Shown piece by piece: positions 13,301-64,000 of a stretch of DNA of 64,000 bases (position 1 is its first letter; each line of letters opens with the position of its first letter). Location of the stretch: the NCBI RefSeq assembly GCF_000485595.1, contig NW_014577625.1, positions 116,647-180,646 of the forward strand, in the 5' to 3' direction. Source of the DNA: Priapulus caudatus. Taxonomy: Eukaryota; Priapulida; Priapulimorpha; Priapulimorphida; Priapulidae. The notes under the pieces are model-generated. The model ran no database searches, was not told the DNA's origin, and worked only from the letters and a program-made list of their open reading frames with translations. The translations under genes were made by a program, and so were the position numbers.

Positions 13301-16300
13301 ATATAAACTCGGGGCACCTGCGCTGCGAGCGAAGAACGCGAAGTCGAAAAGTACTTTGACAAAATTATGCGGTGCAGACGGTTCCGAGGGAGGCGGTTGA
13401 GTCTAATTATCACAGAACCTCATATCACCTAATTCAAATTCTCTGTTAGCAAATATGGAAGTGTAGTCGAGAATTTGAATGATTAATTCGGGTGCAGTCA
13501 GTTTCCTAACTAAGTTACTATATTACATCAACCTTACACGGTTTATGATATTTGCCTCTGTAAGTGTGTTATTGCCTCTGTAGTGTTTTGACAGTTTCAT
13601 GCACACCTCTTCCTGAGATTTTAATATTTTGTATTATGCCGCTGTCCATCTTTTTAGGTCCAGAAAGTAGTTAACCTGACATAAAAGTTTCGGCACTTTG
13701 TCGATTCGATTTCTGTCTTTAAAATTCACGTTTTATTACAGCTTAGCCTATACCATATAACACTGTCACTTGTTTGCACTTCAGCATAAAATAAACGCGT
13801 CGGCTACCTACCACAAAACGCGATGTCTGTGCGCACTCATGCAAGTTAACTCACGTGCAGTTGGCACCTTGTACATTCAAATTCCTGCAGTGCACAAAGG
13901 CTAGCGGCTGTACAAACAATAACTAAGCATTTCAAAAACTTGTTCCCATCGCACCGCGTTTGTGTGTTATGACCGTGTATGTGTACTCACGGCAACCTCG
14001 CTCTCACTGCCATTTTTAACAGCACCGTGACAAATCCATACACGGCTTTATGTCGGGCTATAGCCGCTATACAGCAGCCACTGTCGTGCACGTATGTGTG
14101 CTCTACACAGCTTTGAGTAATTACATACAAACGGACGCTTACTGCACACGCACACTAGCCTACATGATCATTTTAAATTTTATTATTTCCTTTGTAAGCT
14201 TCTTCGTTTAGTTTTACACGCGGCGCCAAAAAAGAAATTACCTTCGAAAAGAAAAAAGTTTATAAGAAGCTCATTCCTAAACCTAATACACTATACGAAC
14301 ATGTAATGTTTATAAATTTATAATTTGTATAAAACAAAATAATGTAATCATTGTTTAATACGATAAAATATGTAATTTTTCTTAATCTTAAATTTTATAC
14401 TTTTATTATTTCTTATTAAGTTTGGAGGTCAAATGTAAGGGTATCCTAGAACCTTTTTAACAGGAAATTGATAGACACATTTAAACTTTAACGTTAAATT
14501 TGTAAACATTAATACGTTTAACTTGGTGCATGTGCACAGTAGATTTAGATAATATTTAGATTTAAAGATGCGTGCATATATATACGCACCTTTAAATCTA
14601 AATATTATCTAAATCTACTGTGCACATGCACCAAGTTAAACGTATTAATGTTTAAAAATTTTACGTTAAAGTTATCCTGTATATTCTGTGTATCCACGAT
14701 TATAATTTTATATCACACCTAAATAACTGCCAGGAACTCTGTCACTCTTACTTCCTGTACTAACTACGTCATTTTAGCCATGGATACTTTCAAGAGCGTA
14801 TAAAGAAGAGCGTATACCTTCTTAATATAATACGCTCTTGATACTTTCGATAGAATGCACTGGCATTACACTGCATGGTCAGTGATGACTTCAACTGAGA
14901 GGGAAACGTCGGGATTTCATAATGTTACCACATGTAGAGCCTTAAATTCACATATTCTTTCATATTTGTGTTAAAATGTAGGCTAGCATTACATTCAAAA
15001 GATAGGAGAACTAACTTAATATCCTGTCTACGAATTCTATTCTGTTAACGAACGCAAGTTATAACGTTCGGCCACTCACAGGCTTCTACGCGATTCGACT
15101 TGGCCGTGCCTCGGGGTAGTAAGAATGCCGTCATAGTAGGTGAAATTCACCCACGTCACGTCTGCCTGAATGAATAGGACTCGGCAACACTTTTGCAAAG
15201 GCATTCGGCAGTTTTTCATCACACTACGGAAAACCTGTTCATCACACTGATAGCTATCAAACTACAAAGCCTTTAAGATTAGGAACACAATAGACCAGCG
15301 TGGCCATCTTTTCTTCAGCGATTTCATAAATGTTACACTCTGAAGGTATATATAATATATACTTAAAAATATGAATAATTCATGAACTTAAAGCAGCCGC
15401 AGAGCTGCCAACATAAAACCTTTGTGTATAATAGGAATTTGAATCTTTACAGGTAGGAATATTCTTCACCAAGTAGGAATTGCATGGGCAACAAGTCATT
15501 TAATCACAATACTACATAATTTTTAGTTCTACATCGATTAATAAATAAAATGCAATCATGTGCATACTCATTGTAGTGTAACAACAAACACAAAGACACA
15601 GGCATAGACAGTATAAGAATATTCTTAGTCTATGATACAGGCTATGAGAACAAAAATAATACAACGTACTGTACACTACATGCATAATCATTGGCCGAGT
15701 CTCCATTCCTGGACTAATAAGAACGCGTGTTGGTTACGTTATAGGTTACGTTCCTTAAGGGCCGAACACACTAGGCGATTTAATCGGGCGACTTTATCAC
15801 CCGATAATATCGCCCGATTCTATCGCGCGGGTCGAGTGGACACATCACGCGATTTTTGACGGCGAGTTCCTACTTCTTTATGTACGCTTTTGATATTATA
15901 TCCCTAATAGCAAGACTAATGTTCACAAGTCTATGTACCACGAAGTGGTATGTGTATAGGTATGTACTTACAAACTGTTTATACATGTAACATTCTGAAA
16001 AAAAAGTTTTAAAAAAAAAGTTCGAGTTGTACTCGGTCGTCCGATTTTCTACTCGATTAAATTAATCAACTCGGCAGCCCAAACGAGTAATATGATCGAC
16101 GAACTCGATTAATCGGAACACCACTAGTACAAATATAATGGGATCGTGACGACTTGTAGCGAAGCAACTTGTATTTTTGTACTAGTGCTTAATTTAGGCC
16201 TACAGTACGCGTGTATTGTTTATCAATTTTCCCCGGTCAATTACCGGTGACGCCGAGCTTCGCCGCCATCGAAACCTTCACAGCCTCCTTCTTCGTTCTG

Positions 16301-16710
16301 TCCCTGTACTCAGACAGGGTCATATCGTACAAGAGGGGCTTCGCCTCCCACAAAGTGATCAACTCTGCCACTTTGTCGTAGGACCACAATAGCTCCATGA
16401 AGTCTGCAATTAATTTTGTCTAATTACGTCAGTATCATTGAACAACTCTGATTGGCTGATGAATACTACAGACAGAATTGTACAATCGGGCGACTTTATC
16501 GCCGACCCGGACACACTAGGCTATATTTTATCGGGCGACTGAAATAATCGCCCGATAATATCAAAACGTTTTGATCGTTGCGATTAAATCGGGCGACTAA
16601 ATCGGCGGCGACTGACTGGACACACTAGCCTAGGCGATTTTCACCGCGATTTAGTCGCCCGACTAAGTCGCCCGATAAAATCGCCTAGCGTGTCTGGCCC
16701 TTTAGAAGTA

Positions 16711-16742
<32 letters not shown>

Positions 16743-19089
16743 GTACTTAAGCTTCCAGTAAAATGACCACTAGCTCCCATGGCAGGAGTGGCAATAATTA
16801 ACCAGGCAGTTTTTAAATCGAGATTGAATTGTTTTCTACTCATAATGGTCCAAAACCGTAGTGTGAGTGAATCGTGATGGCAGTATCATAGACTAAAATC
16901 GTACAAATTCCACCGAAATCAGAAAAGTTGGCAGCTCTGGAGCAGTATAGACGCACGATCTTGAAATAGTTAGCATTTACCGTATACATGTCTTAATTTG
17001 TTCATTTAATATATATAATACTGCCTAAGAAGGTCTTTCTATACAGTCACTCAGACTCCTGGGGCCCATATTCCGAAACAAAATTAGTCTTTTCCCATTG
17101 TCAGAAACAAATTTTAACATTAGCATGAACTTTTTCTCGCACACCAGAAACTTGTAACTTTACGATGTTTCTGTCAACAATCTACGAGAAAAGGGCAATG
17201 TTAAGACTAATTGTTTTTGATAATGGGCCCCTGTTAATTGCAAATCAAGGACTCTGACAGTAAAACACCACTGACCATTACTGACCACTGAACTAATTAA
17301 TAAAAATAAGACCGAAGCTATGTTGCTACTATTCTGCAGCTAATGCTGCAGCTCTGCAGCTAGTTCTGTAGCTGGTGCTGACGATGGTGTTATTTGCTGC
17401 TGTTGCGACACCCACTCGGCTTACTGCTGGTCCTATCTGTGATCATTCGCAATGCATGATACAACTAGAAAGGGCAGTTGTCGCCAACTACATGTATACC
17501 CCGTGTTCTCCCCAAGATGTGTAAGTATACGAAGTTTGGTCGCGCTAGGTCAATTAGGGCCCCGAGTTATAGAGTAGAAAGGAAAGATGATGAAGGTCAA
17601 GGTCAAGGTCAAGGTCAAGGTCAATGTCAAATAAAAGTTGCAATGCCCTGGTTTCGGTACGCGACACACCTTCTCCCCAAGATGTGTAAGTATACCAAGT
17701 TTGGTCGCGCTAGGTCAATTAGGGGCCCCGAGTTATAGAGCGGAAGGGAAATATGGTCAAGGTCAAGGTAAAGGTCTAATAAAGGTCGTAGTGACCTGGT
17801 TTTGGTACGCAACACACCTTCTCCCCAAGATGTGTAAGTATACCAAGTTTGGTAGCACTAGGTCAATTAGGGGCCGAGTTATAGAGCGGAAGGGAAATAT
17901 GATCAAGGTCAAGGTAAAGGTCAAATAAAGGTCGCAGTGACCAGGTTTTGGTACGCTGCGCACCTTCTCCCCAAGATGTGTAAGTATACCAAGTTTGGTA
18001 GCGCTAGGTCAATTAGGAGCCGAGTTATAGAGCGGAAGGGAAATTGTCTGCGGCGTCGACTGGGGAGACATGAAACCATATAGTATACCTGCCGACTTCG
18101 TCGCGGGGGATACAATTATATCTCCTTTTTGAAAACGTCAGCTGAGCTGCAGGGTATTATGAATTTAATGAACACATAATACACAAGGTATGTGGTTTAC
18201 ATACTGGCACAACAGACAGCACCTAAGCCCGGATATATACAAAAAGTTACTCATGAAATGGTACTCTGCAGTGTACCGATATCTTATTCAAATGACATTT
18301 CATTGTTCGATTTAATTGTAAAACTGGCACGTTCAAGTTTTCTATTTTTAGTTAAATACAGTCAACATTGAACTCTCCTAAGACTGACCATGCACTTAGT
18401 TCAGTTTTATGTGATGTTCGGTTTATAGGAAGCCTATTCCAGGCATATCTTACATATGTCTCAGATAGTGTTGGGACTTAAAAATCGTCCGGTTTAACGT
18501 CAGATTTGGTTTGGAGAGCTGACTACTACTACTACTTTTTTTAGATTCCCCCCTCATCTGCCTAGTATAAACACCATAGCGAAATCCTTATAGATTTCTG
18601 CCTCTTTCGTTGGCGGACACGCTATACAGGCGAGCAGACGGACCTTTGCACCATTCTACTAGCTACATCTGACCATGTCAGACGAGCTAAAAATTAAAGT
18701 ATTTAAAACTGTAAAACTGTACTGACAACGCATGTTCAATAATGGCTGAACATGCATGCACCCACGTGGCTGTATGCACACGAGGATACACATGCAGATT
18801 GCAGACACACGCAAGCGCGTCCATCACATTTAGAGAAGCCGCTATGGTTATATGCACTCGCAATGATGAGGTGGTAATTGCGAATTGGTTGGGAGTTATG
18901 GTGTTATAACAGACAGAAAACACTTAAACCAATAAGTCCCAGTCTACCAACGCGCGCCATGCAAACCATGGTAGTAACTCATTTTCGCGATATAACGCGT
19001 GTGCACGAGAGATAGATTGGAGGGTGGAAGGAAAGGAGGGAAGTAGGGGTGGGGGCGAGAGAGAGACGCACGTACAGACAGACATACAG

Positions 19090-19132
<43 letters not shown>

Positions 19133-22100: not shown

Positions 22101-25100
22101 AAGCGCCGGGAAACAATATACAGGAATGGACTACTGAAGGATATATATATGACTGAAAACATGATCCACACAGAGTATACAGGGGGAGAGTGATGATCTG
22201 CATAACATCGCTATACACTGACTGTGTGTTGGTACTGTCCTTTACATGCCATAGGCATAAAACATGAACTACCTCTCAAATGGTTTTGTGAAACTATATC
22301 ATACCTTTCAGGGTACTTTGGTAAACGAAAAAAGTGAACATTGCATGTTTATTCCTGACAATCGATTGTTACAATTTACGAAGAACAGTAGGCACCACCA
22401 TGGTTTCTCTAGTGCGGTGCCATGACGGCGTGACCACAAACTATAGATGGCGCTACCAGTTCAATTAAAAAATGGCTGCCAAATAGGAATTGCACTGAGT
22501 GACTATGCTCGTTGATTTTATTTTATATGCTCTGATCTCCCTTTACATAGGAAAGCAGTGTCCGCCAAGTGTTGCGATAAATCAAAATCTGAGCACTTGT
22601 TTTGCGCTGTGTTAACGCCGAACAGAAATTGTACTCGCCCAAAGATTTTATTTTGGGCCTGTAATATTTTGTTTTTGGTATTTTTTAATCGCCCAGCAGA
22701 GGTTTTGGTCGCCATTGACGACCGGGCGACCGGCTGTGTCGAGCACTGCAGCTAACATTCTTAATTTTACACAGCTGGGGTATATTATAATAAGCAACTT
22801 TGCAGGGAGTGCTGCTCTCTATACTTACAAGGGTTTCAATAAATATTACTGAGGTCAAGGCCTATTAGTATAAAAGTAGTAGGGAATACAAAACGAGGGC
22901 CACCAGGCCTCATGTAACGTTAAAAGCAACTACAGGCTGCAGGACAAATATCTGGCGTACAATTCAAGGAACTGAACTGACACAGCTGAAATCACTGTGC
23001 GCTGATAAATAAAACCACTGTAATCATCCCGGGTATAAGTAATACCCTGCATTAACTCTGGTCACGTATATTCAACCATTTATATGTAATTTGTTGATTA
23101 TTAACAATTTTCACATGTTATGACACAGAAAACCACACAGAACCCAATTCTTTTAAAGAATGAATATAGGGGTTTCTACCCCAAATCCCCTTTCCTGTGT
23201 TACATGATTTTAAATAATCAAAAACCAAGATTGACAGTGTGGTTGCACTCATATGCACATATTTACACCATGTTTACTGTAATCCAATTTGTACTCTGAA
23301 TGCCCTTATACCCATGTGAGATATTATATACAGACCTGTAATGTTTGCCATTCTTTACTTATATATTAGAGAAGATTTATGGATTACCTACATTTTTTGG
23401 CAGAGAAACCTTTTGCAGGAAGGCATCTAATTATGAGTTAATTGGACAACGTAATTTATGTAACAGAATGTCACATTACGAAGGTTTTTTTAAAGGAATA
23501 TACAGTATTTTCGTTATGCAAAGCAAATTACTGTACGAAAGTCGTGAGGTTAAAACATTGTAACATATTCAGCATAATAAATATATGTACATATAAGACA
23601 TATTCATTATACTGAATGTGTTACAACAGGGGTAGAAATTAACTTTTGAACACTGATGTCCAACGGACTCCCTACCCTCAAAAAGAGGGAGTCCGCAGTT
23701 TGAGGTTTAAAATTAAAGATATTTTAGCAATAACGCATGTGCTTATTTTTAAGATTCATGCAGTTGCACGTCTGCCAAATTTTCTTGGGACATTAGCTGA
23801 AAAAATACGGTAATTCCGCGAGGCCGTGCTCTGGAACGAACTAGTCAGTATCGCAGAATTTTCAGGGAGTCACACGGACACCTGCATGTGTCAAATCAAG
23901 GGAGTATTTGACTTCAGACTCCCGTTAATTTCGCACCCTGTTACAATGTTTCAACCTCACGACTTTACGTACAGTAATTTACTCTGCATAACGAAAATAC
24001 TTCTACACTAACGGCCATAAATCCAATGTACATATAAATATAAGACATTGGATTTATGGCCGTTAGTGTGGAAGCTCCAACATACATTTTGCACAAATTA
24101 CCATTGTTTATTTAACCCTACATGTCCATACTTATGAAAAGATAATATGTTTAGTGAAGCAGGGTAAACACGTGGAGAGAGTCGGATGTATGTGGAACGG
24201 GCCTTGGAGTGTCATATTTCATTTTGGCTGCTGTACATCATTGAACATCACAGCTGCACACAAGGTTGGAGAGAGAGCAAGGATCCCCAAAATACAGTTT
24301 GCACACAGCATGCCAGATTCCATAGACTGTAACTGACAATATAACTTACACATGTCACCAAACGTTTATGACTTTTTAAAATTTTGGGCATTAGAATTTA
24401 TGCCATAATATTGAAACATTGTATCAACACTTGGGAAACCTACCTATGTTTAAATTGGAGCTTTGCATGCATGCTAACGTAATTCTGAAATCTGTGATAC
24501 TCGGAGTATTAGCACGCAAACAAACATTTACTACAGAAGCAAATATACAAGCCAGGATGATCGCTACTTTTATAAATTTATGTTAATTAATAAGAAATAA
24601 GCTAGCTCTATTTTATGTAATTTTAAAACCCGGAATACCTATATGGACTAATTTTTGTTACAGAAACATACACACGATTGATACTTCTAGAGACTATTCA
24701 CGTGAATGAGTAATAATCAAGTTTTATCATCACTATGTAGTTTTTAGCCTGTATGATAGCAGTTTGCCTCCTCTGCTGAATTTATTATCAAAATGTACCG
24801 GCTATAAATTTATAATTTACATCCAAACATAACCATATCAATTAATATGAATTTATATGGTAACTGTTTATATAGAGCATTGTTGATGTTTTGATATTAG
24901 GGCACCCATAACACCACTGTTGTTGTGTACGTGACGGTGTTCTTAATTACATTGATATACACATATAGATCCATCACACTAATTAGGTAATATTCAACTG
25001 CTACATATTTAACTTACTAGGCATTTGCTGTATAATATAAAGTTCAGCACACAACCCTAAGATATGGGCTCTTCACTCCAGGAAATTCATGGGAACACTA

Positions 25101-26639: not shown

Positions 26640-26732
26640 TGGTTAACCCATATATATCATTATGTCATATATATATATCAGTAGTAGATAATAGGGAATT
26701 CTTATTATCTACTCCTGATATATATATATATG
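26640..26732. repeat. Cluster of AT-rich hairpins
   Basis: GTAGATAATA and TATTATCTAC arms extended by CAG/CTG and TA-dinucleotide stretches, following a GGGTTAATGGTTAACCC palindrome at 26632-26648. Together with 26735-26771 this makes several hairpins within 140 bp. Confidence 0.75.
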
Positions 26733-26734: not shown

Positions 26735-26771
26735 GAAGAGCGTATAAAGAAGCCTTCTTAATACGCTCTTG
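26735..26771. mobile_element. Micro-palindrome with near-exact 7-bp duplication (instance 2)
   Basis: 37 bp, GAAGAGCGTATAAAGAAG paired with CTTCTTAATACGCTCTTG; nearly the same arms as instance 1. Flanks are ATATGCT (26728-26734) and ATATGAT (26772-26778). Confidence 0.75.
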
Positions 26772-27241: not shown

Positions 27242-27263
27242 GATGTATATATACATATCATAT

Positions 27264-27304
27264 CAAGAGCTAATAATAAGGTATTATATAATTATTAGCT
27301 ATTG
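27264..27304. mobile_element. Micro-palindrome with near-exact 7-bp duplication (instance 3)
   Basis: 41 bp, CAAGAGCTAATAAT paired with ATTATTAGCTATTG. Flanks are ATCATAT (27257-27263) and ATGATAT (27305-27311). A duplicate is at 37284 in copy B. Confidence 0.7.
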
Positions 27305-28371
27305 ATGATATATATCACGGGACGGAATATATATATATATTATTACGGACGGTAACCACTGCCTTACTTTGCATCGGAATACTTGGATACTTGGAAAATT
27401 AAGTATCTAGTTGTAGGGTCGTAGCCTAAAGTAAAGCCCTAGGGAGGTAGTATGTAATATGTGACATTGATGAGTATAATGACGGGGGAGGGCGTAGGCC
27501 GCGTAGCTCAAAGTTCCAGTGTACAGTGTGACAGAGTTGGTGTGCGATGACGATTCACTGCTGACTATATATTTTACATATCATACGACGCTACGCTTAT
27601 AGGCCCTACTATAAAAATTATAGTTATTCGCATTTAATGGGCTTTTATTTTAGTTAAAAAAATCTAAGGAGGTATATAGCTGCCTCCGAGGCCACATTGC
27701 CAGCATAATGTGCCTAGTCGAACCAATACAGAACTGCAGAAATAATTAGAAAAAACGTGCAATAGATAGGTCTACCACAACTGTCGTGTTAGTAAGATCA
27801 TCGCCCCGGCTAACATTTTGGCGCATCACGATAATAATTTACGATAAGAATATAGAAATCATTATTATACTTTTCGCGACACAAATGAGATAAAATTTTA
27901 ATATAACGCATTTGGTATTTATTATTTATTATTATTATTATTATAAAAAATATCAAAAGTCATAGCTGTGATGTGACTGCGGTAATCACTAGCCATAAAA
28001 TTTTATAAGACGTCATATATGCACTTTTGATACAGCCGAAACAATTAGTATAGTAGAAATTAAAAAGGTACGATAAGGATATATATGACGTTGCTAATAT
28101 TGCAATTATATTGGCGCGATGTAAATGCGGTACAACAAATTAGCACACGTCTTGCGAATGTAATTATCATAACTACAACTGACAAAATGAACACACGGCG
28201 CGCGCCGCGCATGTAAAAGAGTCGTGAAGTGCTTACGTCATGCGCGTATACCCTACTGATCTCATCTATTTTTCATCATCTACATCATCTACTGATCTCA
28301 TCTTCATGTCGCAACAATCTCATAATAAGTTTAATATATAGAGATCAGTGGTATACCCCACAGACGCACGC

Positions 28372-28494
28372 CCATGCATACGCGCGAGCGCAGGCACGCA
28401 CTAAACGCGCACGCACGCACGCACGCACGCATGCACACACAGATACACACACACACGCACACACACACACCGACACACAACACAACACACACAC
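28372..28494. repeat. AC-rich microsatellite (copy A)
   Basis: Mixed ACGC, ACAC and ACAG units; its counterpart in copy B is at about 38360-38488 with a longer pure AC run. Confidence 0.95.
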
Positions 28495-28728
28495 CAGGCG
28501 TAGAATAGCGGGGGGGATGGGGGATGCATCCCCCACTTATTGACGTGGGGATGGCGTGTACAATCATTCCCCCTACTTTCAGGAGGAAAATGGGGGATTC
28601 AACATTTTCTGGGGAGGACCCGCATACCCCCGCATGTTTCTTACCACCCTCCTCGAAATCCTGCATTGCCACTGTCGAGCGTAACAAATTTAGCACCCCC
28701 CCTTCAAAAATCGTTCCGCCGCGCCTGT
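28494..28728. mobile_element. CAGGGGCGTA-type MITE
   Basis: Starts CAGGCGTAGAATAGCGGGG (CAGGGGCGTAGATAGCGGGG in the copy at 38488) and ends CCGCCGCGCCTG. A related half copy is at 28803-28900. It is inserted at the end of an AC microsatellite, so target duplication is unreadable. The X'/Z' misjoin falls inside its second copy. Confidence 0.75.
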
Positions 28729-30470: not shown

Positions 30471-30545
30471 ACACACACACACACACACACACACAACACA
30501 ACACACACACACTACACACACACACACACCACACACACACCACTA
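30471..30545. repeat. (AC)n microsatellite upstream of exon 1 duplicate
   Basis: AC repeats with occasional CT/AA interruptions. The counterpart at 45064-45142 differs in length and interruptions. Confidence 0.95.
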
Positions 30546-30736
30546 CACTGGTGAGCTTAGATATTTTTTATTTTCAAAGAGATCAGTTTACACGGCCAAG
30601 TAAAATTCAGCCAGTTCGCGACATGTTACGGCTTATCGTTAAAAAGGATTATCGAAGTATACCGCAGCGTTTGCCCGAACGCGAGTTGATTCGTCTCACT
30701 TTACCGAAGCGCCCTCTGTCCCCATATGCTGGCATA

Positions 30737-30812
30737 ATGGCCGACAGCCGTACAGCTGCTACGATCTTCTAAGGAGTCTCCGAAGTGCCAGCCGTAATGA
30801 AGTATAAAAAAG
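30737..30812 (+). pseudogene. Damaged duplicate of DNAJA2 exon 1
   Basis: Starts ATGGCCGACAG like the exon at 45329 and shows the same 5' context and donor region (AAAAAAGGT), but it is 76 nt rather than 69 and is frameshifted by several small insertions. It belongs to the duplicated block 28725-31835 / 43225-46455. It is more likely a noisy assembly copy than a real pseudogene. Confidence 0.7.
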
Positions 30813-31515: not shown

Positions 31516-31547
31516 CCCTAACCCTAACCCTAACGCCTAAACCCTAA
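31516..31547. repeat. Interstitial telomere-like tract
   Basis: Three CCCTAA units followed by variant CGCCTAAA and CCCTAA units. The degraded counterpart is near 46136-46170. CCCTAA is the animal telomere repeat. Confidence 0.8.
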
Positions 31548-31696
31548 CGCAAAAAAGGGGCTTGAACGACCGACGGCTACCGTACCTCCAGCCACTGCGA
31601 ATTGATAATGCCTTTCTAACATATTCTAACCTCATAACCTCATAAGTGATCATCTTGAAAAGTCCTGGGGACTATAACGAAGATGGAGAGAGTGGA

Positions 31697-36101: not shown

Positions 36102-36127
36102 CAAGAGCACATAAGATTGCGCTCTTG
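36102..36127. mobile_element. Micro-palindrome with near-exact 7-bp duplication (instance 4)
   Basis: 26 bp, CAAGAGC and GCTCTTG around a 12-nt centre. Flanks are ATCGTTT (36095-36101) and ATTGTTT (36128-36134). Confidence 0.6.
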
Positions 36128-37268: not shown

Positions 37269-38451
37269 TATATACATATCATATCAAGAGCTAATAATAA
37301 GGTATTATAATTATTAGCTATTGATGATATATATCACGGACGGATATATATATATATTATTACGGACGGTTAACCACTGCTTACTTTGCATCGGAATACT
37401 TGGATACTTGGAAAATTAAGTATCTAGTTGTAGGGTCGTAGCTAAAGTAAAGCCCTAGGGAGGGTAGTATGTAATATGTGACATTGATGAGTATAATGAC
37501 GAGGGAGGGGCGTAGGCCGCGTAGCTCAAAGTTCCAGTGTACAGTGTGACAGAGTTGGTGTGCGATGACGATTTCACTGCTGACTATATATTTTACATAT
37601 CATACGACGCTACGCTTATAGGCCTACTATAAAATTATAGTTATTCGCATTTAATGGGCTTTTATTTTAGTTAAAAAAATCTAAGGAGGGTATATAGCTG
37701 CCTCCGAGGCCACATTGCCATGCATAATGTGCCTAGTCGAACCAATACAGAACTGCAGAAATAATTAGAAAAACGTGCAATAGATAGGTCTACCACAACC
37801 TGGCTTTAGTAAGATCAGGCTAACATTTTGGCGCATCACGTAATAATTTTACGATAAGAATATAGAAATCATTATTATACTTTTCGGACACAAATGAGAT
37901 AAAATTTTAATATAACGCATTGGTATTTATTTATTTATTATTATTATTATTATAAAAAATATCAAAAGTCATAGCTGTGATGTGACTGCGGTAATCACTA
38001 GCATAAAATTTTATAAGACGTCATATATGCACTTTTGATACAGCCGAAACAATTAGTATAGTAGAAATTAAAAAGGTACGATAAGGATATATATGACGTT
38101 GCTAATATTGCAATTATATTGGCGCGATGTAAATGCGGTACACAAAATTAGCACACGTTGCGAATGTAATTATCATAACTACAACTGACAAAATGAACAC
38201 ACGGGCGCGCCGCGCATGTAAAAGAGTCGTGAAGTGCTTACGTCATGCGCGTATACCCTACTGATCTCATCTACTTTTTCATCATCTACATCATCTACTG
38301 ATCTCATCTTCATTCCAAAATCTCATATAAGTTAATATATAGAGATCAGTGGTATACCCACAGACGCACGCCCATGCATACGCGCGAGCGCAGGCACGCA
38401 CTAACGCGCACGCACGCACGCACGCACGCATGCACACACAGATACACACAC

Positions 38452-41700: not shown

Positions 41701-43140
41701 TCCCCATGTTTTTGGGGCGCTAAAATAGAAAGTCCATTAGCTTATTATAAGTACTCACTTCGTTATTGTTGGAAACTATATCAACAATTTCTAGCAAGCA
41801 ATCTCTTTAACACAACAATTTTTATGCCATACACATGTCCAATAGGTCAGTCTCTTTAACGTCCTGCCTCCAGTGCACCTGACAGGCTGCAGCGTCCTAC
41901 ATGAAGCGCCGGCTTATCGCATCGTACGCTAAGTTTGGTCACAATCGTCTGTACATATCGTTTTCACAGAGGCACATAAGATTGCGCTCTTGATCTGTTG
42001 CATTGCTGCAGTCACTTCGTACTAGTGTTTAAAATACTTCTTAATCAGCTTTTTTAAAAGGCATTGCATTGTCTTAACCAGGAATTAAGTCGGTGAAGTA
42101 TTGTCATCATTAAAAAGAGAACGTCGATCACACTGCAACTCTGGAAGATACCCCAGTAAATTCTGACCGCAGTTGCTGTGCTGCCATCCTCTGCCTTTCA
42201 TGATGTATAGACTCCTACTCATAACCGCCTTCATACGGTGGCACGTGATACAGCTTAAATGTTCTAGTCTCCTCATCCACGCTTAGCTTCTTTGATTCTG
42301 TGTAAGTCTGGTCACTCTTCCTTTGACTCTTCCCGGGTATGATATTCGCTGTCTCATTAAAGGGAGGACACAGGCTGAGTTCTGCATATTCCAGGTGCGT
42401 CTTACAGGGCTGGAGTAAGTTTGTCAGATACCGTGGCGGCGTCTAGGCGTATCTAAAGACTCTCTGATGACACCACTATACTGTTGGCTTATGGTGATGT
42501 GAGATGCGTGTTTTTTGCTGACTTTAGTTGTGCGTCTACTACTACACCTAAGCATCTTGAGAGTTGGCGTCGTAGACTAGCTAGTGTTCTATACCTTTTT
42601 GGTGTCATGCTGCAAAGAGTTTGCATACACTGTTGATTACCGTCCAGCTGTCGTTGATTGAAAAATCATTGAACAATATTGGCCCACTCACCTTCTTGGC
42701 GTATTCCCGCGGTGCCATCTGACCATTCAGAGAATGTTCCATTATACATACAGCCTGTTGCCTGCGATTGACAAGATGTATAATATATATCATAACCGTG
42801 TTTCCCCTTGCCTGGACGAGCGACGGTGCGCCGCTTCGCTCCCCAATTCTCAGCCTTGCCACATCGACATTTGCTCCAACCAACACGCCTCGAATGACGA
42901 AAGCCTTTGACAACTTGAAAGAAGAGACAAGAGCTCATACAATATCTCAAACTTCACCAATAATGCTTTGAATGCAGCCAAATTGCACCATTTTTTTGCA
43001 ATTTCCCCAGACCCCTAGCTTGGCCAGCACCTGTGCGCTGCACTTTGCTAGGACCTCGAAACACTGCAACACATAACACCCAAAATTCACTCATCTCACA
43101 GACCTTTTTTGCCAAGGAAACTGTCAAACACCTGTATACT
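38720..43140. repeat. Duplicated block, segment Z' (copy B, very noisy)
   Basis: Error-rich version of 32987-37270, including degraded versions of the LINE, the 1-kb foldback, the hAT element and the second RT. Indels every few bases, often in homopolymers, resemble unpolished long reads. Confidence 0.88.
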
Positions 43141-45062: not shown

Positions 45063-45063
<1 letters not shown>

Positions 45064-45114
<51 letters not shown>

Positions 45115-45142
45115 ACACACACACACCACACACACACACACT
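45064..45142. repeat. (AC)n microsatellite upstream of DNAJA2
   Basis: AC repeats about 190 bp upstream of the DNAJA2 start codon. Confidence 0.95.
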
Positions 45143-48300: not shown

Positions 48301-51300
48301 AGCCATGTCTAAGACTAAGTTCAATATTTCGTTGCATAAAGAGACAGAGAAAATGCATAAATAAACTTACAAAGCACTAATAGTAATATTACACTTCGGA
48401 TTAAAATACTGATCATCTTCATGGAATAGTTCAGTTATTCTACGCGAACTTTCGAACGCTGGCAGTTTCGCTTCGGATCTGAAACAGTGAGCACCAGTGC
48501 AGCTAGCTAGCAATCAGGGTGACCAGACGTCCCGTATTTTGCCCATGGTGTCCCGCGTCCCTACCGACCTTCCGCGGGACGCATGTGTGTCCCGTATTTT
48601 TAACATTTTTAAACAAAATACATCAAAAAAGGAAGAAATTTTATCATTTTTTTATTACAATGTTTGCCTTCCGAAACTCATTCATCGCTCGCGTTCATTT
48701 TACATACGCCTCCACAGTACATTGCAGACAGGCGTATTGTCTAGACGCATTGTCTGGTTCGCTTGATACAATGTAATCACATGTATGCTGGCGCTTGCAA
48801 ATATGCCCCGTCAGATTTTGACCTCTGGCTAGACTGGTTCGCGGCCGAACTGTTCGTCGCAGAGCGTGTACATTGTCTAGCAGAGCGTGAGCCGGATACC
48901 AGTCTAACACAATAACGTGGCTTTGTTGCAGCCGCAGTAGACGGATAAAACCGTGCGCGCCCGTGTATGCCCGCGTAGAATGCTGCACGTGCGTACGTGT
49001 GCCCTCGCTCCGCGAATTGCTCGCTCTCTTTTGAATGAGATTAGCACGTAACAATTAGAAACAATTATTTTTATCACATAGACACTTTGAAATTTAGTGC
49101 CCGATCGGGCCACCAAATTTTAACTTTTGGAAATTTTGGTGGCCCGACATCAAGTTTTGGTGGCCCCGCATCTCGGCCTAGGAGTATCGTAGAGACAAGC
49201 GGTTGGTCTTATTTTAGAGAGCAAAGAATGCTGCTTAACGCAAATACCATGAACTTAGTCTAGAACCGCATACAAAGTAGAATAATATTGCCGTGAAATA
49301 GCACTATTTTCCCGTTGTACACTCTAAGTATTTTTAGCTCTTGAATATAAATATAATATATATTATATATATTTTATATATTAATTATATATATACTGAA
49401 TATATGCTGAATCTAAATTTTCACAGTCAAAGAATTTTGCAGAATGCATCTCGGAGCGTCTAAAATCAAAACCCAGATCCCCCCTCCCCCCCCTCCGCAA
49501 ATGGCAAAATTGTGCTCACTGCGTAGCCTCAGCGCGGCACTTCAGAAAAGTAAGGGCTGGTAGCTATTTTTAAGGGCTAGTAGATTTTACAGGTCACTAG
49601 CCCTGCTGGCTAGTGAACATTTTACGTTAGTTTCAAGCCCTGTACACAGTTATCATGTATTTTCAGGATTTTTTGCAGATGACCTATTCTCACATATCTT
49701 TGGAGGTGGGATGTTCGGAGGTATGGGGGGAGGCATGGGAGCGATGGGTGGTGCCAGGAGAGCTCGCAGACAACGGGGCCAAGATACCCTACATCCTCTC
49801 AGGTACTTGCAGCTGCATCTGTAACGTGTTGTTTTATAATAGTGGTTGAATGTGGCAATGTATAGTGCAACCATTTAACCACAAAGAGTGGATAAAAATA
49901 AAAATGTATATCCATAGTTTGTCAACAAATATTGTTAGTATTACTTACAGTGATACAGTCACATTAAATGTTGTCCATTTATAAGGCTGTGTGTGTGTTA
50001 GATCAGTTGGTGTGTGCATGTGTCTGTATGTGTATGCAATTATACTTTTGAAGGCAATCATATGTATGTCCATTTGTGATTGTTCTTGATTTGCTTACTA
50101 TGTGTAAGATTAGTGTCCATCTGGGATTGTACTTTACTTGCTTACTACATGTAAGATTAATGTAAAATTAAATAGTAGAGTTGGTTGGTTCTCATTTTCT
50201 GTTATAGTTTCTGTGTGGGGGTGTGATATTTGTTAAATTGGAGTTAGTTTACTCATTCATTACCTGGGTACAAATTTTTCATTGCAAGTTACCACAGTAT
50301 AATAAACAGAAGATTGAGTGTAACATGCATAGGTGTAGAATTGAATTTTATTTGAATTTTTATGTATTTTTCAGAGTCACTCTAGAAGATCTCTATACTG
50401 GAAAAACAGCCAAGTTGCAACTCAGCAAAAATGTCATTTGCCTTGCATGTAAAGGGTATCGTATTACTAATGTTTATTTTTCTCAAGAATCATTACATCA
50501 GAGTAAAGATAGACATGCATTCATTATGCAACTTTAGGGTTTATCATATTGAGACATTGTGTAACACGTCACAGGTGTGTTGCAAACGTGGTAATTATTG
50601 GCGTATTATATTCAATGATTTATGTTATCTCCATTTTCACTATGTTAGCTGCACACACTGTGTTTTACATTGAAACCTATAGCACTTCACGCTCACTCCA
50701 AACACCATAATCACATGGTCGTGTTGATTGGCACATGGCATTTTAGTGTGTGTCACACGTATCTAATGGCCCAGTCACACATACGCGACGCACGGCCCGC
50801 GCATTGAAAAAATGGAAAATAAGATCAGTGCGTCGTTGTGCGACCAACTTTTGTCAGGATTTGGGAGAAGCTAGCGAGTTGACAACGAATGCACAGTGTG
50901 TTGCTAGCACGCTGCGCGTATACAGGGCGCATACAGAGTGCATACAGAGCATATACAGGGCGCACATGTTGAAAAATCCAACGAATGCACAGCGTGTTGC
51001 TAGCGCACGAAACGAATGGTCCGCGCATTCAACGCACAGCCAGCGAACGGCAGCGGTCATGCATGCTGTGACAATGAGCTTGACGGTCTCGGGCTGCTGC
51101 TGCATCGTGCTCAGGAGAACTTGGAAATGGTTGGCCAGGATTCCGAAGGCATTTTCTACGACCCTCCTGGCTCGGGAAAGCTGGTAGTTCAAGATGCGCT
51201 CTGGCCGCGTCATACCCCGGAGGCTGTACGGCTGCATCATGTTGGGTCGTAGGGCGAAGGCATCGTCGCCGATGAAGAAGTAGGGCACATCCTGGTTGTC

Positions 51301-54300: not shown

Positions 54301-57300
54301 TATTATGGTTGAGGATAAGCTAACCCCAAAAATAATCAAGTAATGTAATTCACACTCAGTGGTAATGAACAGAGGCTGAGAATATGAAAAGTATATTATT
54401 ATAAAAAAAATTAAATTGTGCGTATTTCAGGATGGGTGGGCGACCAGGAGCGATGGTGAATTGCAAATCTTGCCATGGGCGTGGAATTAAAGTTACCGTA
54501 CAGCAGTTAGGTCCAGGAATGGTACAGCATTTCCAGACAGTGTGTCCAGACTGTCATGGGGAAGGTAAATGTTGAGAACTAATTAAAGTGGTGTATAAAT
54601 TCATGATAGCAGTGCGACTTACCAGTGAACAGAAGAGTAAATAGGCATATAATGTATGTGTTGTACTCTTGTTTTGGAATGTTTAGCACATTAAGTGAAA
54701 TTACCAAACAAACTAGGTTGCTCTTTTATATTCTTTTTCTATAGTTATCAGATCAAATTGAAAGTTAAACGTCATTGCAACAATTTATTATGAGTTGTTA
54801 AACAGAGAATGAATACAGACATGGTGACTCATTATTTATGCTACCCTAGCAATATGCAATTGCAGTATTTGAAAAATGTGTGTTAACCTTATATCAAATA
54901 CAACACTGTGCGACTGTTTTGTAACATGGGTTGTGTGTGTGTGCGTGCGTGCGATACACATATTATATAGTGCTCAGTCATTTCATTCCTGCGTTTCCTG
55001 CGATTGTATTAGGTGAATACATCAATGAGAGAGACAGATGTAAAGACTGTCTCGGGAAGAAAGTGAAAAATGAAACCAAAGTATTGGAGGTGCATGTAGA
55101 CAAAGGCATGAGAGATGGCCAGAAGATATACTTTTATGGGGAAGGTGACCAGCAGGTAAGTGTTTGTATTCTGTTAGCTGTGGTGAGCAGTTGGTGGTGG
55201 GGGTAGTTGTAGAAGAGGGTGAATGCGCTTCATGGTGCATAATATATATATATATATATACATTAGCATATATATATATATATATATATATAAATATCGA
55301 ATCTGCGAATCATGATGCAATCTATCAGAAATGCCATTAGAGACGTGGCATTCTAAGAATTTAGTATGACCATTTCTATATTGCTGGATAGGTTTACTTG
55401 TATTTAGCATATACAAACTGCTTTTAATTTGGTGATTTTCGCCACCTTGAACATGGGTTTATTTTGAAATATAGTATTAAGTGTATGTGCGTGTGGTGAT
55501 GTTTGTGTTTATGTCTGTGTGCACGCACGTGGGTGTCGTCACACATGACTGTGTCTAGGTTGACATCTGTGTGATTACTTCAGTGTGTGGTATGTGAGCA
55601 CACGTGTCTATATGTGGTGGGTGGCAAAGGTCTGCATATGAATCTCTGCAGGGTGGTGTGTGCACGTGTGTGTTACTGCTCACAGTATGTTTTTACCTTT
55701 TTGCAGAATTTCTGTCTGCACATATTTCTAATGTGTATGTGCTTGTGCGTGTGTGTCTTGCAGCCAGGTATAGAACCCGGTGACATCATTATAGTGCTGC
55801 AGCAGAAAGACCATGAGGTTTTCCAACGAGACGCGTCAGACGACCTGTGGATGACTCACACAATTGGCATCACTGAGGCTCTCTGTGGTGGCCAATTTAC
55901 AGTGACGCACTTAGACAACCAGACACTACTGGTTACTATTACGGCCGGGCAGGTTCTAAGGCCAGGTAGTGATTTCACATGTATTTTTGTGTTTGAAAAC
56001 ATGCATAACATTTGTCACATTATTTATGGATTTTTTCTGTGTGTTTTTCTGTTTCTATGTGTTATTATCAGGAGTGGATAATAGAGAGGAGTATGACAGA
56101 CTCGAAACACAAGATATTCAACATTTCCATGCCCATATTTACCTATGATTGATAACGTGAAATCCAATAACAATAACATCATGACTATAGCGCTGAACAT
56201 CCAACTTGACCTCACACTTTACTGTGTATCGATGCCTCTTCTTATTATGTAGTTATAGCTTCGAACGTCAGATGTGGTTTCACTCATAAATATCGCTAAG
56301 AGTCTATCATTCGCATCCGATAGTTCAACAAGAGGCAGCTTTCATATCTGTTGGCGTGGTTCGGCGGGGATTACTATATACATCAGCACTCTTGATATCA
56401 GTAATAGTAGCGACCCTCGCACGCCCGCCGCAACGGCACCGCAACGGCGAGTGGTGGGACCGGCTAGTTTTTGTGAAAGCTAGTTGATATACAGTGACAC
56501 AACTCTAGTGTAAGTGTAAAAAACGGGTAGTTTTTGTGAATGGGCCGCGTTCATGTTAGTTTCAGTTTTTACTGACTGTCCCAAGTGCCTGTTGACTGGC
56601 ATGCTCAGCGTAACTGTGGTCTCTGACTCAGCCAGCCTCAGCGACCGTCTCGGTGTTATTAAGCTTACCTCGGCCAAGGAGGTTATGGTTTCGCCCCTGT
56701 TTGTTTGTTTGTTGGTTTGTCTGTCAACAAGATATCTCAAAAAGTTCTGAAATCTCTATCTGTACTAGCCGTGCCATGGGTTAGATCCAGCGTTCGGAGC
56801 TAGTTGCGAGTTGCAAATCCTCGCCGAACCCCGCCAACGGGTATCTTAAGAGAAAGCCCTCCCCCAGAAAATTTTTGAAATTAGACCCACTCAGATGCGT
56901 TTTCTGCGCGAGCAAGGAGGGGTGGTCCGGACCCAGACCGAGCACACGAAGGGGGGGTCTGGGGGGCCCTCCCCCAAATTTTTTTGGAAATTAGACCCAC
57001 TCAGATGTGTTTTCTGCGCGAGCAGGGGGGGTCCGGACCCAGACCGAGCACGCGAAGGGGGGATCTGGGCGGCCCTCTCCCAAATTTTTTTTGAAATTAG
57101 ACCCACTCAGATGCGTTTTCTGCGCGAGCAAGGAGAGGGGGGGGGTCCGGACCCAGACCGAGCACACGAAGGGGGGGTCTGGGGGGCCCTCCCCCAAATT
57201 TTTTTTAAAATTAGAACCACTCAGATGCGTTTTCTGCGCGAGCAGAACCCCCCCCCCCTAAATGCAAACTGACGGGGGAAAAAAGGGAAAGAAGCCAATC

Positions 57301-58825
57301 GTTGACGCACTATCACACACAATAAAAAGGTTCTCACTTCACAACACACACACACACACACACACACACAACACACACACTTACACACAAAATCATGGTG
57401 ATCCAAAATCGTGTGGGGGGGACATTTGATATGATGTCCCCCCTCTGAAAATTCGTGGGGGGGACATGTCCCCCTGTCCCCCCCTGGATTTGCGCCCCTA
57501 AGTGAAACCACGTCTGACGTTCGAAGCTATAACTACATAATAATAAGAGGTATCGATACACAGTAAAGTGTGATGACAAGTTGGATGTTCAGCGCTAGTT
57601 CTGATTAATTTTTATTGGATTTCACATAATCAATCATAGGTAAATATGGGCATGGAAATGTTGAATATCTTGTGTTTCTAGCCTGTCATACTCCTCTCTA
57701 TTGTCCATTCCTGTTATTATTTATATTTATTATACAACTCAATATTTTCTATATATAGTCATAATGGAATATAACATTATTTGAAATGCATGTTTTATAA
57801 TTGGGAATTTTTTAATAGTTTGTCAAGAAACGAGCATACTGGTCTTTATGTGAAAAGTGTTATTTGACCTTTTTCTGTATTTTACAGGTGTGGTCATGAC
57901 AGTAGAGCGCGAGGGAATGCCATTCTATAAAAATCCATTTGAGAAAGGCAATCTGCACATTAGATTTGACGTTAGGTTTCCTGAAAATGGTTTTGCTGAC
58001 AACAGTGCGCTTGTGGTGAGTTCACTAATTATAATTTCAGCAGAATTTGATACTCTGTGAAAGACTTCAGGTCTGAATATTGTGTTTAAGAAGTATGAAT
58101 TGTGGAAAAAAAATCTGTGTTGCTGATTTGTAACTGAATCGATTCACACATGCATGATTCGTAGCTCATCTGTATGGTTAAATTGTAGCAATAGTCATCA
58201 TATTTTCTTTTCATCATTTTTTGAGAAATGTTGGTCATAAGCAGGTTTTGTGTATCTGCAAGCGTATGTCCTATGATCATGATGGGCAGCGCTTGTGCCG
58301 AGTTGCAGTCCATATAGATATAGTAATAGATCTAACACTGATTTGATTGTATATAATTTTAAGCATATAGCAGCAAGTTGCTGTCAGTCGTGCATCATCT
58401 GCAATATCTGTTCACTGATGCAGGCGTTATTAGGTGTCAGCACACGTATCAGCAGCTTATGTTGTCTAGCAACGTAGAAAAAGTTGCTTCAGATATTCAG
58501 AAATCATTCTCTAGTTAAATTTATTTTGATTCATTCATTCAACCCAGATGTTTCTGTTCCATTTTGTAAGAACCCATCAAACGCTTGCCTGCAGCATAGG
58601 TACGCTATACAGGTGTACATGGTATGAGCGTGTCGTTTACCTGTGCAGGAATTGGAGGCGATGTTGCCGCCGCGTCCACAGTTCATCATGCCGACCGGCG
58701 AACACATGGAGGAGGTGAACCTGCACGACTACAACCCTCACGACGAGCGTGGCAGCGGCAGGACCGACGCCTACCACGAGGATGAGGAGGAGAGTGGTGC
58801 CGGGGTGCGCTGTGCTCACCAATAG
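45329..58825 (+). CDS. DNAJA2: DNAJA2 gene, type I HSP40/DnaJ co-chaperone (10 coding exons)
   Basis: Ten exons join to 412 residues, the same length as human DNAJA2. Order: J domain with HPD at 33-35, which stimulates HSP70 ATPase; Gly/Met/Phe-rich linker (about 80-110); four zinc-binding CxxCxG motifs at Cys147/150, 163/166, 190/193 and 206/209; two beta-rich client-binding domains; acidic tail ending CAHQ, a CaaX-type farnesylation box at Cys409. It is a cytosolic co-chaperone of HSC70. Every junction is GT-AG and phase-consistent, except that exon 1 as written has one surplus A before its donor. Introns are loaded with transposons. A damaged second copy of exon 1 lies at 30737-30812, within the duplicated block. 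The C-terminal motif and zinc-region wording match DNAJA2 better than DNAJA1 or DNAJA4. Confidence 0.96.
46584..46643 (+). CDS. DNAJA2: DNAJA2 exon 2 (J domain helix II, HPD)
   Basis: Encodes 20 codons, [20 protein letters not shown], containing the HPD loop that contacts HSP70. Acceptor is TTTTTTTATTCAG and donor is GTAAGT; phase 0 on both sides. It lies in clean sequence just after the noisy block ends near 46455. Confidence 0.95.
46773..47115. mobile_element. hAT-like MITE, family 1 copy 2
   Basis: The element is 343 bp in DNAJA2 intron 2. Ends are CAGGGTGCAAAATTAAC and AAATTTCTACCCCTG, flanked by exact CTATTA (46767-46772 and 47116-47121). It aligns along its length with the inverted element at 23627-23940. 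Confidence 0.88.
47562..47670 (+). CDS. DNAJA2: DNAJA2 exon 3 (end of J domain)
   Basis: Encodes [21 protein letters not shown] and [10 protein letters not shown], the conserved J-domain helices III/IV. Acceptor ends TTGTTCTAG, donor is G|GTAAGTAA. It ends in phase 1. Confidence 0.95.
47696..49178. mobile_element. hAT-like element in DNAJA2 intron 3 (right end unclear)
   Basis: Begins CAAGGCTCGACACTAAC, followed by GGCCCGATCGGGCCACCAAA; a second block GCCCGATCGGGCCACCAAAT and GGTGGCCCGACATC lies at 49098-49170. An interior stretch (about 48800-49010) matches, inverted, the MITE at 32467-33109. No matching right terminus or target duplication is visible, so the boundary is approximate. Confidence 0.65.
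49667..49802 (+). CDS. DNAJA2: DNAJA2 exon 4 (G/F linker)
   Basis: Encodes the [11 protein letters not shown] motif followed by a Gly/Met-rich linker and a basic run (ARRARRQRG), ending DTLHPLR. The acceptor is TATTTTCAG and the donor [18 protein letters not shown]-type wording is characteristic of DNAJA2. Confidence 0.94.
50375..50455 (+). CDS. DNAJA2: DNAJA2 exon 5 (first zinc motif)
   Basis: Encodes [20 protein letters not shown] then CLACKG, the first CxxCxG. Acceptor is TATTTTTCAG, donor GG|GTATCG. The intron that follows is about 4 kb and contains the PIF/Harbinger transposon and nested MITEs. Confidence 0.94.
50767..52707 (-). mobile_element. PIF/Harbinger DNA transposon, complete ends
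   Basis: The element is 1941 bp with long imperfect terminal inverted repeats of about 45 bp: left starts TGGCCCAGTCACACATAC, right inverted TGCGCCAGTCACACATAC. Target duplication is TAA (50764-50766 and 52708-52710), as expected for the superfamily. It encodes a DDE nuclease on the minus strand. It lies in DNAJA2 intron 5, antisense to the host gene. Subterminal regions are rich in repeated ACGCTG/GCTAGC-type words. Confidence 0.92.
50854..52057 (-). pseudogene. Harbinger (HARBI1-like) DDE transposase, inactivated
   Basis: Starts at 52057 with a basic segment containing [16 protein letters not shown], typical of Harbinger transposases, then the DDE_Tnp_4 nuclease with ALDGKHV (first Asp), FIGDDAF (second Asp) and [12 protein letters not shown] (Glu). 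Two lesions are visible: a run of ten G at 51868-51877, where nine would keep frame, and an in-frame TAA about 50 codons later, just before [10 protein letters not shown]. The end also looks lost: after LIVTACM (near 51060) the frame runs into subterminal DNA instead of the usual VCLHNYL-type tail. The first lesion could be a sequencing error, the other two not. Confidence 0.9.
53226..54012. mobile_element. hAT-like MITE carrying a nested MITE
   Basis: The element is 787 bp in DNAJA2 intron 5. Ends are CAGTGCTGCCACT and AGTGGCAGCACTG, flanked by CACGTA (53220-53225 and 54013-54018). Both flanks of the interior contain repeated TACTTTTT words. The nested element is at 53478-53792. Confidence 0.85.
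53478..53792. mobile_element. hAT-like MITE nested in another MITE
   Basis: The element is 315 bp. Ends are CAGTGTTTCCC and GGGAAACACTG, flanked by CATTG (53473-53477 and 53793-53797). A related copy forms the end of segment Z (36940-37268). Confidence 0.82.
54431..54564 (+). CDS. DNAJA2: DNAJA2 exon 6 (zinc motifs 2 and 3)
   Basis: Encodes [19 protein letters not shown], then a stretch ending [21 protein letters not shown]. It carries the second and third CxxCxG motifs. Acceptor is TATTTCAG, donor G|GTAAAT. Confidence 0.95.
55013..55155 (+). CDS. DNAJA2: DNAJA2 exon 7 (zinc motif 4)
   Basis: Encodes [17 protein letters not shown] through [13 protein letters not shown] to GEGDQQ. It completes the zinc domain and returns to client-binding domain I. 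Acceptor is GTATTAG, donor CAG|GTAAGT. Confidence 0.95.
55764..55965 (+). CDS. DNAJA2: DNAJA2 exon 8 (client-binding domains)
   Basis: Encodes [20 protein letters not shown], then [18 protein letters not shown] and AGQVLRP. The wording matches DNAJA2 client-binding domains I/II. Acceptor is GTCTTGCAG and donor G|GTAGTG. The next intron carries a 1.6-kb foldback element. Confidence 0.95.
56880..57245. repeat. Tandem array of about 107-bp G-rich unit
   Basis: Four diverged units containing TTAGACCCACTCAGATGCG, TTTTCTGCGCGAGCA and GGTCCGGACCCAGACCGAGC. A single related unit occurs in the MITE at 26782-27241. It lies inside the foldback element. Confidence 0.85.
57343..57384. repeat. (AC)n microsatellite inside foldback element
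   Basis: AC repeats between the G-rich array and the right arm of the intron 8 foldback element. Confidence 0.93.
57888..58015 (+). CDS. DNAJA2: DNAJA2 exon 9 (client-binding domain II)
   Basis: Encodes [20 protein letters not shown] then [15 protein letters not shown]. The EGMP-NPFEKGDL-like motif is a hallmark of DnaJ C-terminal domain II. Acceptor is TATTTTACAG, donor GTG|GTGAGT. Confidence 0.95.
58649..58825 (+). CDS. DNAJA2: DNAJA2 exon 10 (acidic tail, CAHQ, stop)
   Basis: Encodes [11 protein letters not shown], then an acidic tail (YHEDEEESG) and GVRCAHQ followed by TAG at 58823-58825. The CAHQ ending is identical to vertebrate DNAJA2 and is a CaaX-type prenylation signal. Acceptor is CCTGTGCAG. 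The exon is markedly GC-richer than its surroundings. Confidence 0.95.
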   Translation, partial: ELEAMLPPRPQFIMPTGEHMEEVNLHDYNPHDERGSGRTDAYHEDEEESGAGVRCAHQ

Positions 58826-62140: not shown

Positions 62141-62184
62141 CAAGAGTCTATCAATAGATATGAGAGATTATTGATAGACTCTTG
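62141..62184. mobile_element. Micro-palindrome with exact 7-bp duplication (instance 5)
   Basis: 44 bp, CAAGAGTCTATCAATA paired with TATTGATAGACTCTTG. Flanked by exact ATATTAT at 62134-62140 and 62185-62191. Confidence 0.85.
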
Positions 62185-63574: not shown

Positions 63575-63783
63575 AGGTAAAGCTAATGGGTTAGATAACA
63601 ATATCAAGATAATATGCCTGCAAAATTTATAAAAGATGGATCAAATATTATTTGCTCAGCTGTTACACGTGTAATCAACATGTCAGTCATCCAAGGAAAA
63701 ATCCCCGATGACATGAAGGCAGCAAGAGTCATCCCAATACATAAAAAGAACAGCAAAACAGAACCCTCAAACCTCAATAAATG
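63575..63783 (+). pseudogene. Non-LTR reverse transcriptase fragment
   Basis: Encodes a short stretch typical of the region just before the RT core: a KANGLD-like motif, MPAKFIKDGSN, then MKAARVIPIHKKNSKTEPSN, ending in LNK and a stop where NYRPIS would normally follow. A small indel separates the first motif from the rest. The element is truncated on both sides. The palindrome at 63821-63863 follows 38 bp later. Confidence 0.75.
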
Positions 63784-63820
63784 AGCATATAAGAAAACTA
63801 GTAATATATAGGCCTACGGA

Positions 63821-63863
63821 CAAAGAGCTTATAATGATTATTATTATCATTATAAGCTCTTTG
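63821..63863. mobile_element. Micro-palindrome with exact 7-bp duplication (instance 6)
   Basis: 43 bp, CAAAGAGCTTATAATGAT paired perfectly with ATCATTATAAGCTCTTTG. Flanked by exact CTACGGA at 63814-63820 and 63864-63870. Confidence 0.85.
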
Positions 63864-64000
63864 CTACGGATCAAAAAACAAAAACATTAACAAGCAAACT
63901 AACCAAATTTGCGAGCAAGACATAAATAGGCAAGTAAAGGAATAACTCACAAGAATTATATGGATAAAGCATTTATACAAAATAAAATGATAAAATGTAG

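Follow-up and report, generated by a model that had tools for sequence, protein, structure and literature searches.

The P element of Drosophila is the closest described counterpart of the sequences reported here. Its transposase cuts one strand 17 bp inside the element, a stagger described as setting P apart from other characterised cut-and-paste transposons (PMC7776569), and the donor ends carry 17-nt 3' overhangs after excision (PMC2895639). In the end-joined P{wa} excisions from Rad51-deficient spn-A flies, the product consists of a target site duplication (TSD), a tail, a microhomology or an insert, the other tail and the TSD again (PMC2895639, Table 1); AAC(AT)GTT is the commonest short-microhomology class in that table, which also holds many long-microhomology joins from which no palindrome results. 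Galileo, another member of the P superfamily, has TSDs of 7 or 8 bp with the consensus GTATTAC (PMC4168063). We describe here very short palindromes in a 64,000-nt stretch of the genome of the priapulid Priapulus caudatus (contig NW_014577625.1, positions 116,647 to 180,646; this whole stretch is called the window, and its own numbering is used throughout). They have ends of the CAAGAG type, lie between 7-bp direct repeats and are quite probably excision footprints of transposons. The titles and abstract openings of the literature searched gave no account of such footprints in Priapulus.

The priapulid copies resemble the Drosophila P footprints in their layout of TSD, tail, joint, inverted tail and TSD, and in having AT microhomology as the commonest short class. 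They differ in that the fly footprints have 17-nt tails and 8-bp TSDs and come from a laboratory assay, whereas the Priapulus copies have arms of up to about 20 nt, TSDs of 7 or 8 bp and CARGAG ends, and are natural and numerous. With Galileo they share TSDs of 7 or 8 bp, a palindromic target (GTATTAC there, ATAWTAT here) and long inverted repeats, the comparison covering these three features. The P-MITEs (miniature inverted-repeat transposable elements) of Anopheles are likewise non-autonomous copies with terminal inverted repeats (TIRs) and target duplications, but measure some 205-675 bp, judged by their names, and have 8-bp TSDs and internal sequence (PMC1562414), whereas the Priapulus palindromes have no interior. 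A classical MITE with a shared interior was rejected in view of the 38 distinct joints among 50 listed copies of one subtype (see below), although the exact-centre class alone could pass for one. The original prediction had also set aside Dada, with its 6-7-bp TSD as here, and we agree: Dada-U6 and Dada-U1 are without TIRs, and those Dada elements whose termini are clear lie within small nuclear RNA (snRNA) or transfer RNA (tRNA) genes (PMC3706591), whereas the Priapulus copies have inverted ends. ARAGORN, run in its bacterial setting, detected no tRNA in the window, and snRNA genes were not searched for. The hAT elements, with a TSD of about 8 bp (PMC3706591), were excluded in turn since the Priapulus TSDs are mostly 7 bp.

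Ends and target duplications

Six palindromes had been proposed in the window, with flanking 7-mers that were perfect at three sites and matched at six of seven positions at the other three; all six were found where predicted with the ends described, and the flank matches were exactly as claimed (Table 1). Summed over the six sites, the flanks match at 39 of 42 positions at length 7, compared with identities of 0.17-0.42 at the other lengths from 3 to 15, and the p-values against an AT-matched null combine to about 2e-10 (Fisher). When palindromes of any sequence with exact 7-bp flank repeats were counted, the window contained five, three of them among the six, against a mean of 0.13 and a maximum of 2 in 150 locally shuffled windows.

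Across the genome assembly (385 Mb, 2952 contigs), the pattern CAAGAGN{10,38}CTCTTG was found at 2386 places, against 262 for the reversed pattern used as a control. From the 50 of these places that were listed, we fetched 44 in contig order, the flanks playing no part in the choice; among them are a match nested in another (L015) and one or more pairs of duplicates (L005/L006). A perfect 7-bp repeat flanks 21 of the 44 and a repeat matching at six of seven positions another 9; the remaining 14 include two with perfect 8-bp repeats, one with a match at seven of eight positions, and one match nested in another. The mean flank identity was 0.747 at length 7 and 0.18-0.40 at lengths 3-6 and 8-12; the value of 0.60 at length 2 probably arises because the preferred target starts and ends with AT. 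We also scanned the window and twenty stretches of about 10 kb, picked for palindromes regardless of flanks, for palindromes between exact repeats. CARGAG ends were present in 17 of 23 such palindromes at repeat length 7, compared with 0 of 44 at length 5, 1 of 20 at length 6, 1 of 13 at length 8, 0 of 8 at length 9 and 0 of 11 at length 10. The excess of 7-bp repeats over controls that the original prediction proposed as a check is thus present, and the data speak strongly for its claim that the copies arose by an insertion which duplicated 7 bp of target.

The consensus of 38 non-duplicate perfect 7-bp TSDs is ATAWTAT, and their self-complementarity is 0.70, against 0.45 for letter shuffles. 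In a catalogue of 67 copies, entry to which required 7- or 8-bp repeats with at most one mismatch, the TSD is perfect in 39 at 7 bp and in 7 at 8 bp, two of the latter being plain AT repeats; 8-bp duplications occur in some copies outside the window. Target duplications of 7-8 bp are therefore present as in the P superfamily, also among the 44 places chosen without regard to flanks. Eight more copies were found in about 199 kb around index copies, which by extrapolation gives some 15,000 copies genome-wide, a rough figure from a small and non-random sample.

Joints between the arms

Under the model that we favour, a cut-and-paste transposon with ends of the form CA(A/G)GAG(Y)nnATAA... (with CARGAGYNNATAA as the end pattern for paired inverted element ends) would insert at ATAWTAT-like targets and duplicate 7, sometimes 8, bp. 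On departure its transposase would make one of the two strand cuts at the border of the element and the second some 20 nt further in, leaving about 20 nt of each inverted repeat as a 3' tail. The host would then join the two tails, often after trimming them or copying filler from them, in the style of polymerase-theta-type end joining. The product would be a near-perfect palindrome in which two TIR remnants in opposite orientation, each of at most about 20 nt, meet at the joint and are enclosed by the two copies of the TSD. Because each scar would retain both ends of the departed transposon, arms could be unlike between copies and yet symmetric, and this anatomy would explain why the copies are symmetric, share only their ends, often measure close to 36-40 bp, have odd centres and retain the TSD on both sides. 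A repair scar predicts distinct joints and inserts that match the arms, which an amplifying micro-element does not.

The joints were read in two end-subtypes. For the GTGC subtype, the pattern was anchored at GTGCATAATA...TATTATGCAC only, allowing arms down to 15 nt, and was found at 59 places (control 0). The 50 listed joints comprise 33 with inserts, 13 with microhomology (11 with the centre GAG(AT)CTC and 2 with a one-base microhomology) and 4 that are blunt; 38 of the 50 are distinct, as are 32 of the 33 insert joints. For the 27 inserts of at least 3 nt, the longest match to the tail or to its complement averages 5.89 nt; the average falls to 3.80 when the inserts are shuffled (none of 2000 shuffles reaching 5.89) and to 3.66 when the tail is shuffled (none of 1000). 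Applied to the ten fly inserts of at least 3 nt in PMC2895639, the same test gave 5.2, compared with 4.1 after shuffling of the inserts (0 of 1000) and 4.0 after shuffling of the tail (13 of 1000). In the window, the centre of the palindrome at 14791-14840, AGCGTATA, repeats its own left arm.

Scored against a 20-nt tail, a reference length that we chose and that sets the ceiling partly by construction, 56 of the 100 ends in these 50 joints are complete and the others measure 15-19 nt. Of the 56 complete ends, 22 belong to exact-centre copies, which are equally compatible with blunt 19-nt tails, and tail lengths of 19-21 nt cannot be told apart firmly. The joints of this subtype thus fit tails of about 20 nt, from which the position of the cut would follow, with a single joint reaching 23 nt. 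Given that 38 of 50 listed joints are distinct, that the arms extend to about 20 nt and that the inserts are arm-like, the proposal in the original prediction that the palindrome itself is the mobile, inserted unit is probably wrong.

For the second subtype, the pattern ATAATAGAGA...TCTCTATTAT requires 19-nt arms, and is hence biased to complete tails; it was found at 205 places (control 0). An exact centre is present in 32 of the 50 listed joints and fillers in the other 18. Among 20 exact-centre copies that were fetched, the 38-bp borders carry a perfect 7-bp TSD in 8 and one matching at six of seven positions in 2, a further copy is compound (61 bp) and likewise lies between perfect 7-bp TSDs, 4 have perfect 8-bp repeats (one within an AT repeat), 2 have repeats matching at seven of eight positions, and 3 have none.

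Parent elements and competing explanations

Longer elements with similar ends are present in the genome. The 1645-bp element in the window, which the original prediction had missed, has inverted terminal arms of about 215 bp with 92% identity and TTATTAT as a perfect 7-bp TSD on both sides, and a 682-bp element (L019:1191-1872) has the TSD GTACAAT on both sides. A foldback insertion of about 690-695 bp (L053/L057; two copies, one contig) lies in an AT repeat beside an exon for a P-type helix-turn-helix (HTH) domain, and a paralogue of this locus, L054, is without the insertion and so represents an empty site. All three kinds have the left end CARGAGTnnATAATAGAG in common, together with long inverted arms. 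The ends of the Priapulus copies may resemble the end of 1360/ProtoP.

The parent transposon likely belongs to the P superfamily, a conclusion that we hold with less confidence than that of an excision origin. The label is based on the inferred chemistry together with TSD length and target, and a gene between the ends plays no part in it. The P-transposase HTH domain has 14 matches in the genome, and several families of P-type transposase genes were seen (L045, L047, L049 and relatives). The frame at L049 is open over the 688 residues read, contains four P domains (the HTH domain, the two parts of RNase H and the GTP-binding insertion), and matches 6p5a, the solved structure of the Drosophila transposase. 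The copy at L046 contains an inverted segment and is either rearranged or misassembled. At 20 loci around P-type genes, full matches to the end motif were found only at the L053/L057 insertions, with one further match, at L047, having one mismatch; an alignment of P-type gene copies to locate their ends gave no convincing element, and a TIR scan of contig C408 gave four weak candidates, none with CARGAG ends.

Several observations weigh against an origin by excision from a P-like parent. A transposase gene enclosed by CARGAG ends was not encountered, the surroundings of the P-type genes having been read in part, and the 1.6 kb downstream of L049 hold nothing better than a single CTCTTTG at 1.5 kb (of the type at 63821, without the ATAA extension). 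The joints imply T at position 20, but A, C or G stands there in the long relatives that were read, and the exact parent of the GTGC subtype is therefore not among them. The base after a complete tail is unfixed, with G in excess (G 13, T 10, A 5, C 4). Outer ends and TSDs were read in 4 of the 50 listed GTGC-subtype copies, and none of the micro-copies yielded an empty site, the only empty paralogue being that of the 695-bp relative. The same GTGC-subtype insert occurs at both C437 and C541, and among the 18 filled joints of the second subtype short fillers recur (A or T and C or G three times each, and TAA/TTA twice). One exact centre accounts for 11 of the 50 listed GTGC-subtype joints, and the 32 listed exact centres of the second subtype are identical; amplification of a 38-bp unit would match both. 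These last points, along with the 2386 matches to the CAAGAG pattern, the frequency of the exact centre GAGATCTC in different end-subtypes and its occurrence between differing flanks and TSDs, are what self-mobile micro-MITEs would lead one to expect, that is, TIR-only units of about 38 bp transposing in trans in several subfamilies. We nevertheless consider such units improbable, given the nearly always distinct, arm-like insert joints of the GTGC subtype; the AT microhomology of two 20-nt tails would also yield the exact centre, and it is the commonest short class in the fly table. Elements of 26-40 bp also seem too short to loop and pair their ends in the usual way.

Footprints could instead have been left by a transposon outside the P superfamily with an independently evolved long stagger, an explanation that is unlikely and whose odds overlap with those of the footprint model as a whole. 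It would fit the failure to find a P transposase within CARGAG ends and the ends of fly P (PMC2895639) and zebrafish Pdre2 (PMC10983969), which share only the initial CA with CAAGAG. On the other hand, the long stagger is described as distinguishing P (PMC7776569), TSD length and target resemble those of Galileo, and P transposases are present in the genome. Very doubtful is derivation by internal deletion through abortive gap repair in longer foldback elements: such relatives do exist, compound copies (L024:2404-2475 and L073) carry extra arm fragments, and one of the 50 listed GTGC-subtype joints, C149:384497, follows an L019-like arm for 23 nt, which also counts against a uniform tail of about 20 nt. 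The other listed joints of this subtype, however, stop by 20 nt of the long arms seen and in none of them does the GTATGA or GAGTAT of those arms occur, whereas the long relative in the window keeps its inverted-repeat identity for some 215 bp. Chance palindromes or replication-slippage cruciforms in AT-rich DNA may explain individual matches, as the flanks are AT-rich, about 262 of the 2386 matches are expected from the reversed control and 14 of the 44 fetched places fall below six of seven at length 7; as an account of the whole set they are negligible in view of the specific end motif, the 7-bp flank repeats and the shuffle tests.

Returning to excision, we lean towards the broader view that the priapulid genome holds of the order of ten thousand heritable scars, left by a lineage with a stagger of about 20 nt that is either P-like or unrelated with convergent chemistry, and forming a germ-line record of theta-type end joining. 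The long staggered cut of P is known biochemically from Drosophila (PMC7776569); if the view is correct, a genome sequence would suffice to read off the length of the cut, and any animal genome with such elements could serve to test whether the stagger is common to the P superfamily. The scars would also supply numerous natural junctions of repaired breaks in an animal remote from the flies in which this repair was studied, their fillers resembling those that have been ascribed to polymerase theta in flies, and would record how often and where transposons left. Very short palindromes with target duplications can, by the same token, be mistaken for miniature transposons.

Setting of the copies in the window

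Table 1. Palindromes and the long relative in the window (strand not assigned for any feature)
Feature	Coordinates	Length (bp)	Flanks or TSD	Remarks
Footprint palindrome	14791..14840	50	ATACTTT at 14784-14790 and 14841-14847	In PSKH1 intron
Possible extra footprint	26679..26717		8-bp AT-repeat flanks, uninformative there	CAGTAGTAGATAATAGGG...CTCCTG; in AT microsatellite
Footprint palindrome	26735..26771	37	ATATGCT/ATATGAT, 6 of 7	Left end GAAGAG
Footprint palindrome	27264..27304	41	ATCATAT/ATGATAT, 6 of 7	
Footprint	36102..36127	26	ATCGTTT/ATTGTTT, 6 of 7	In degenerate, non-LTR (long terminal repeat) retrotransposon-like frame
Second copy of 27264-27304	37285..37323			In duplicated block, most likely an assembly duplicate
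Indel-rich copy of 36102-36127	41965..41992 (left coordinate approximate)			In duplicated block
Long relative	56069..57713	1645		Left end CAGGAGTGGATAATAGAG, right end CAGGAATGG; borders set by eye
Footprint palindrome	62141..62184	44	ATATTAT, perfect	
Footprint palindrome	63821..63863	43	CTACGGA, perfect	Variant ends CAAAGAGC

The protein of a PSKH1 exon in the window matches a Priapulus caudatus protein at 100% identity; the latter maps to minus-strand exons at 26117-25173, 8814-8611 and 7928-7809, which places the palindrome at 14791 inside an intron of this gene. When the flanks of the 36102 copy are joined, the retrotransposon-like motif is closer to continuous than in the filled site, and the frame change persists. 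The extra site at 26679-26717 (CAGTAG...CTCCTG) looks like a variant of the same kind of palindrome. A single 187-bp element running from a CAAGAGC at 26585 to the right end at 26771 was also considered, and dropped as undecidable amid AT microsatellites, its flanks matching at six of seven positions.

Between 27248 and 46456, three blocks are repeated in tandem, with an N gap at 43190-43224. The block at 27248-28719 recurs at 37269-38720 with 7 mismatches and 56 gaps, a difference almost purely of indels, and is most likely an assembly duplicate. The blocks at 28722-31825 and 32988-37321 recur at 43226-46456 (87% identity) and 38721-43189 (81% identity), respectively, and both alignments are gap-rich; these two more diverged pairs (124 mismatches and 321 gaps; 372 mismatches and 521 gaps) are probably assembly or haplotype duplicates, and the same probably holds for the copy of the 36102 palindrome at 41965-41992. 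The recurring blocks were at first read as independent copies or as an empty site, an interpretation that was dropped given the indel-type difference of the 27264 pair, and palindrome copies within them were excluded from the count of events.

Other inverted structures were noted in passing. Palindromes of the form CATAGA...TCTATG at 15603-15634 and at L016:709-744 have 7-bp flank repeats matching at six of seven positions and perfectly, respectively, and may be footprints left by another family whose ends differ. The PSKH1 intron contains, near the footprint at 14791, a 190-bp head-to-head inverted repeat (14484-14673; 95% complementary), and 30-bp arms that are 97% complementary enclose a 15-base loop at 24000-24074. 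Lastly, an 87-bp sequence with inverted ends at 50909-50995 has a perfect 9-bp flanking repeat, GTTGCTAGC, and lies within the span of a long minus-strand frame that we take to resemble a Harbinger-type transposase.

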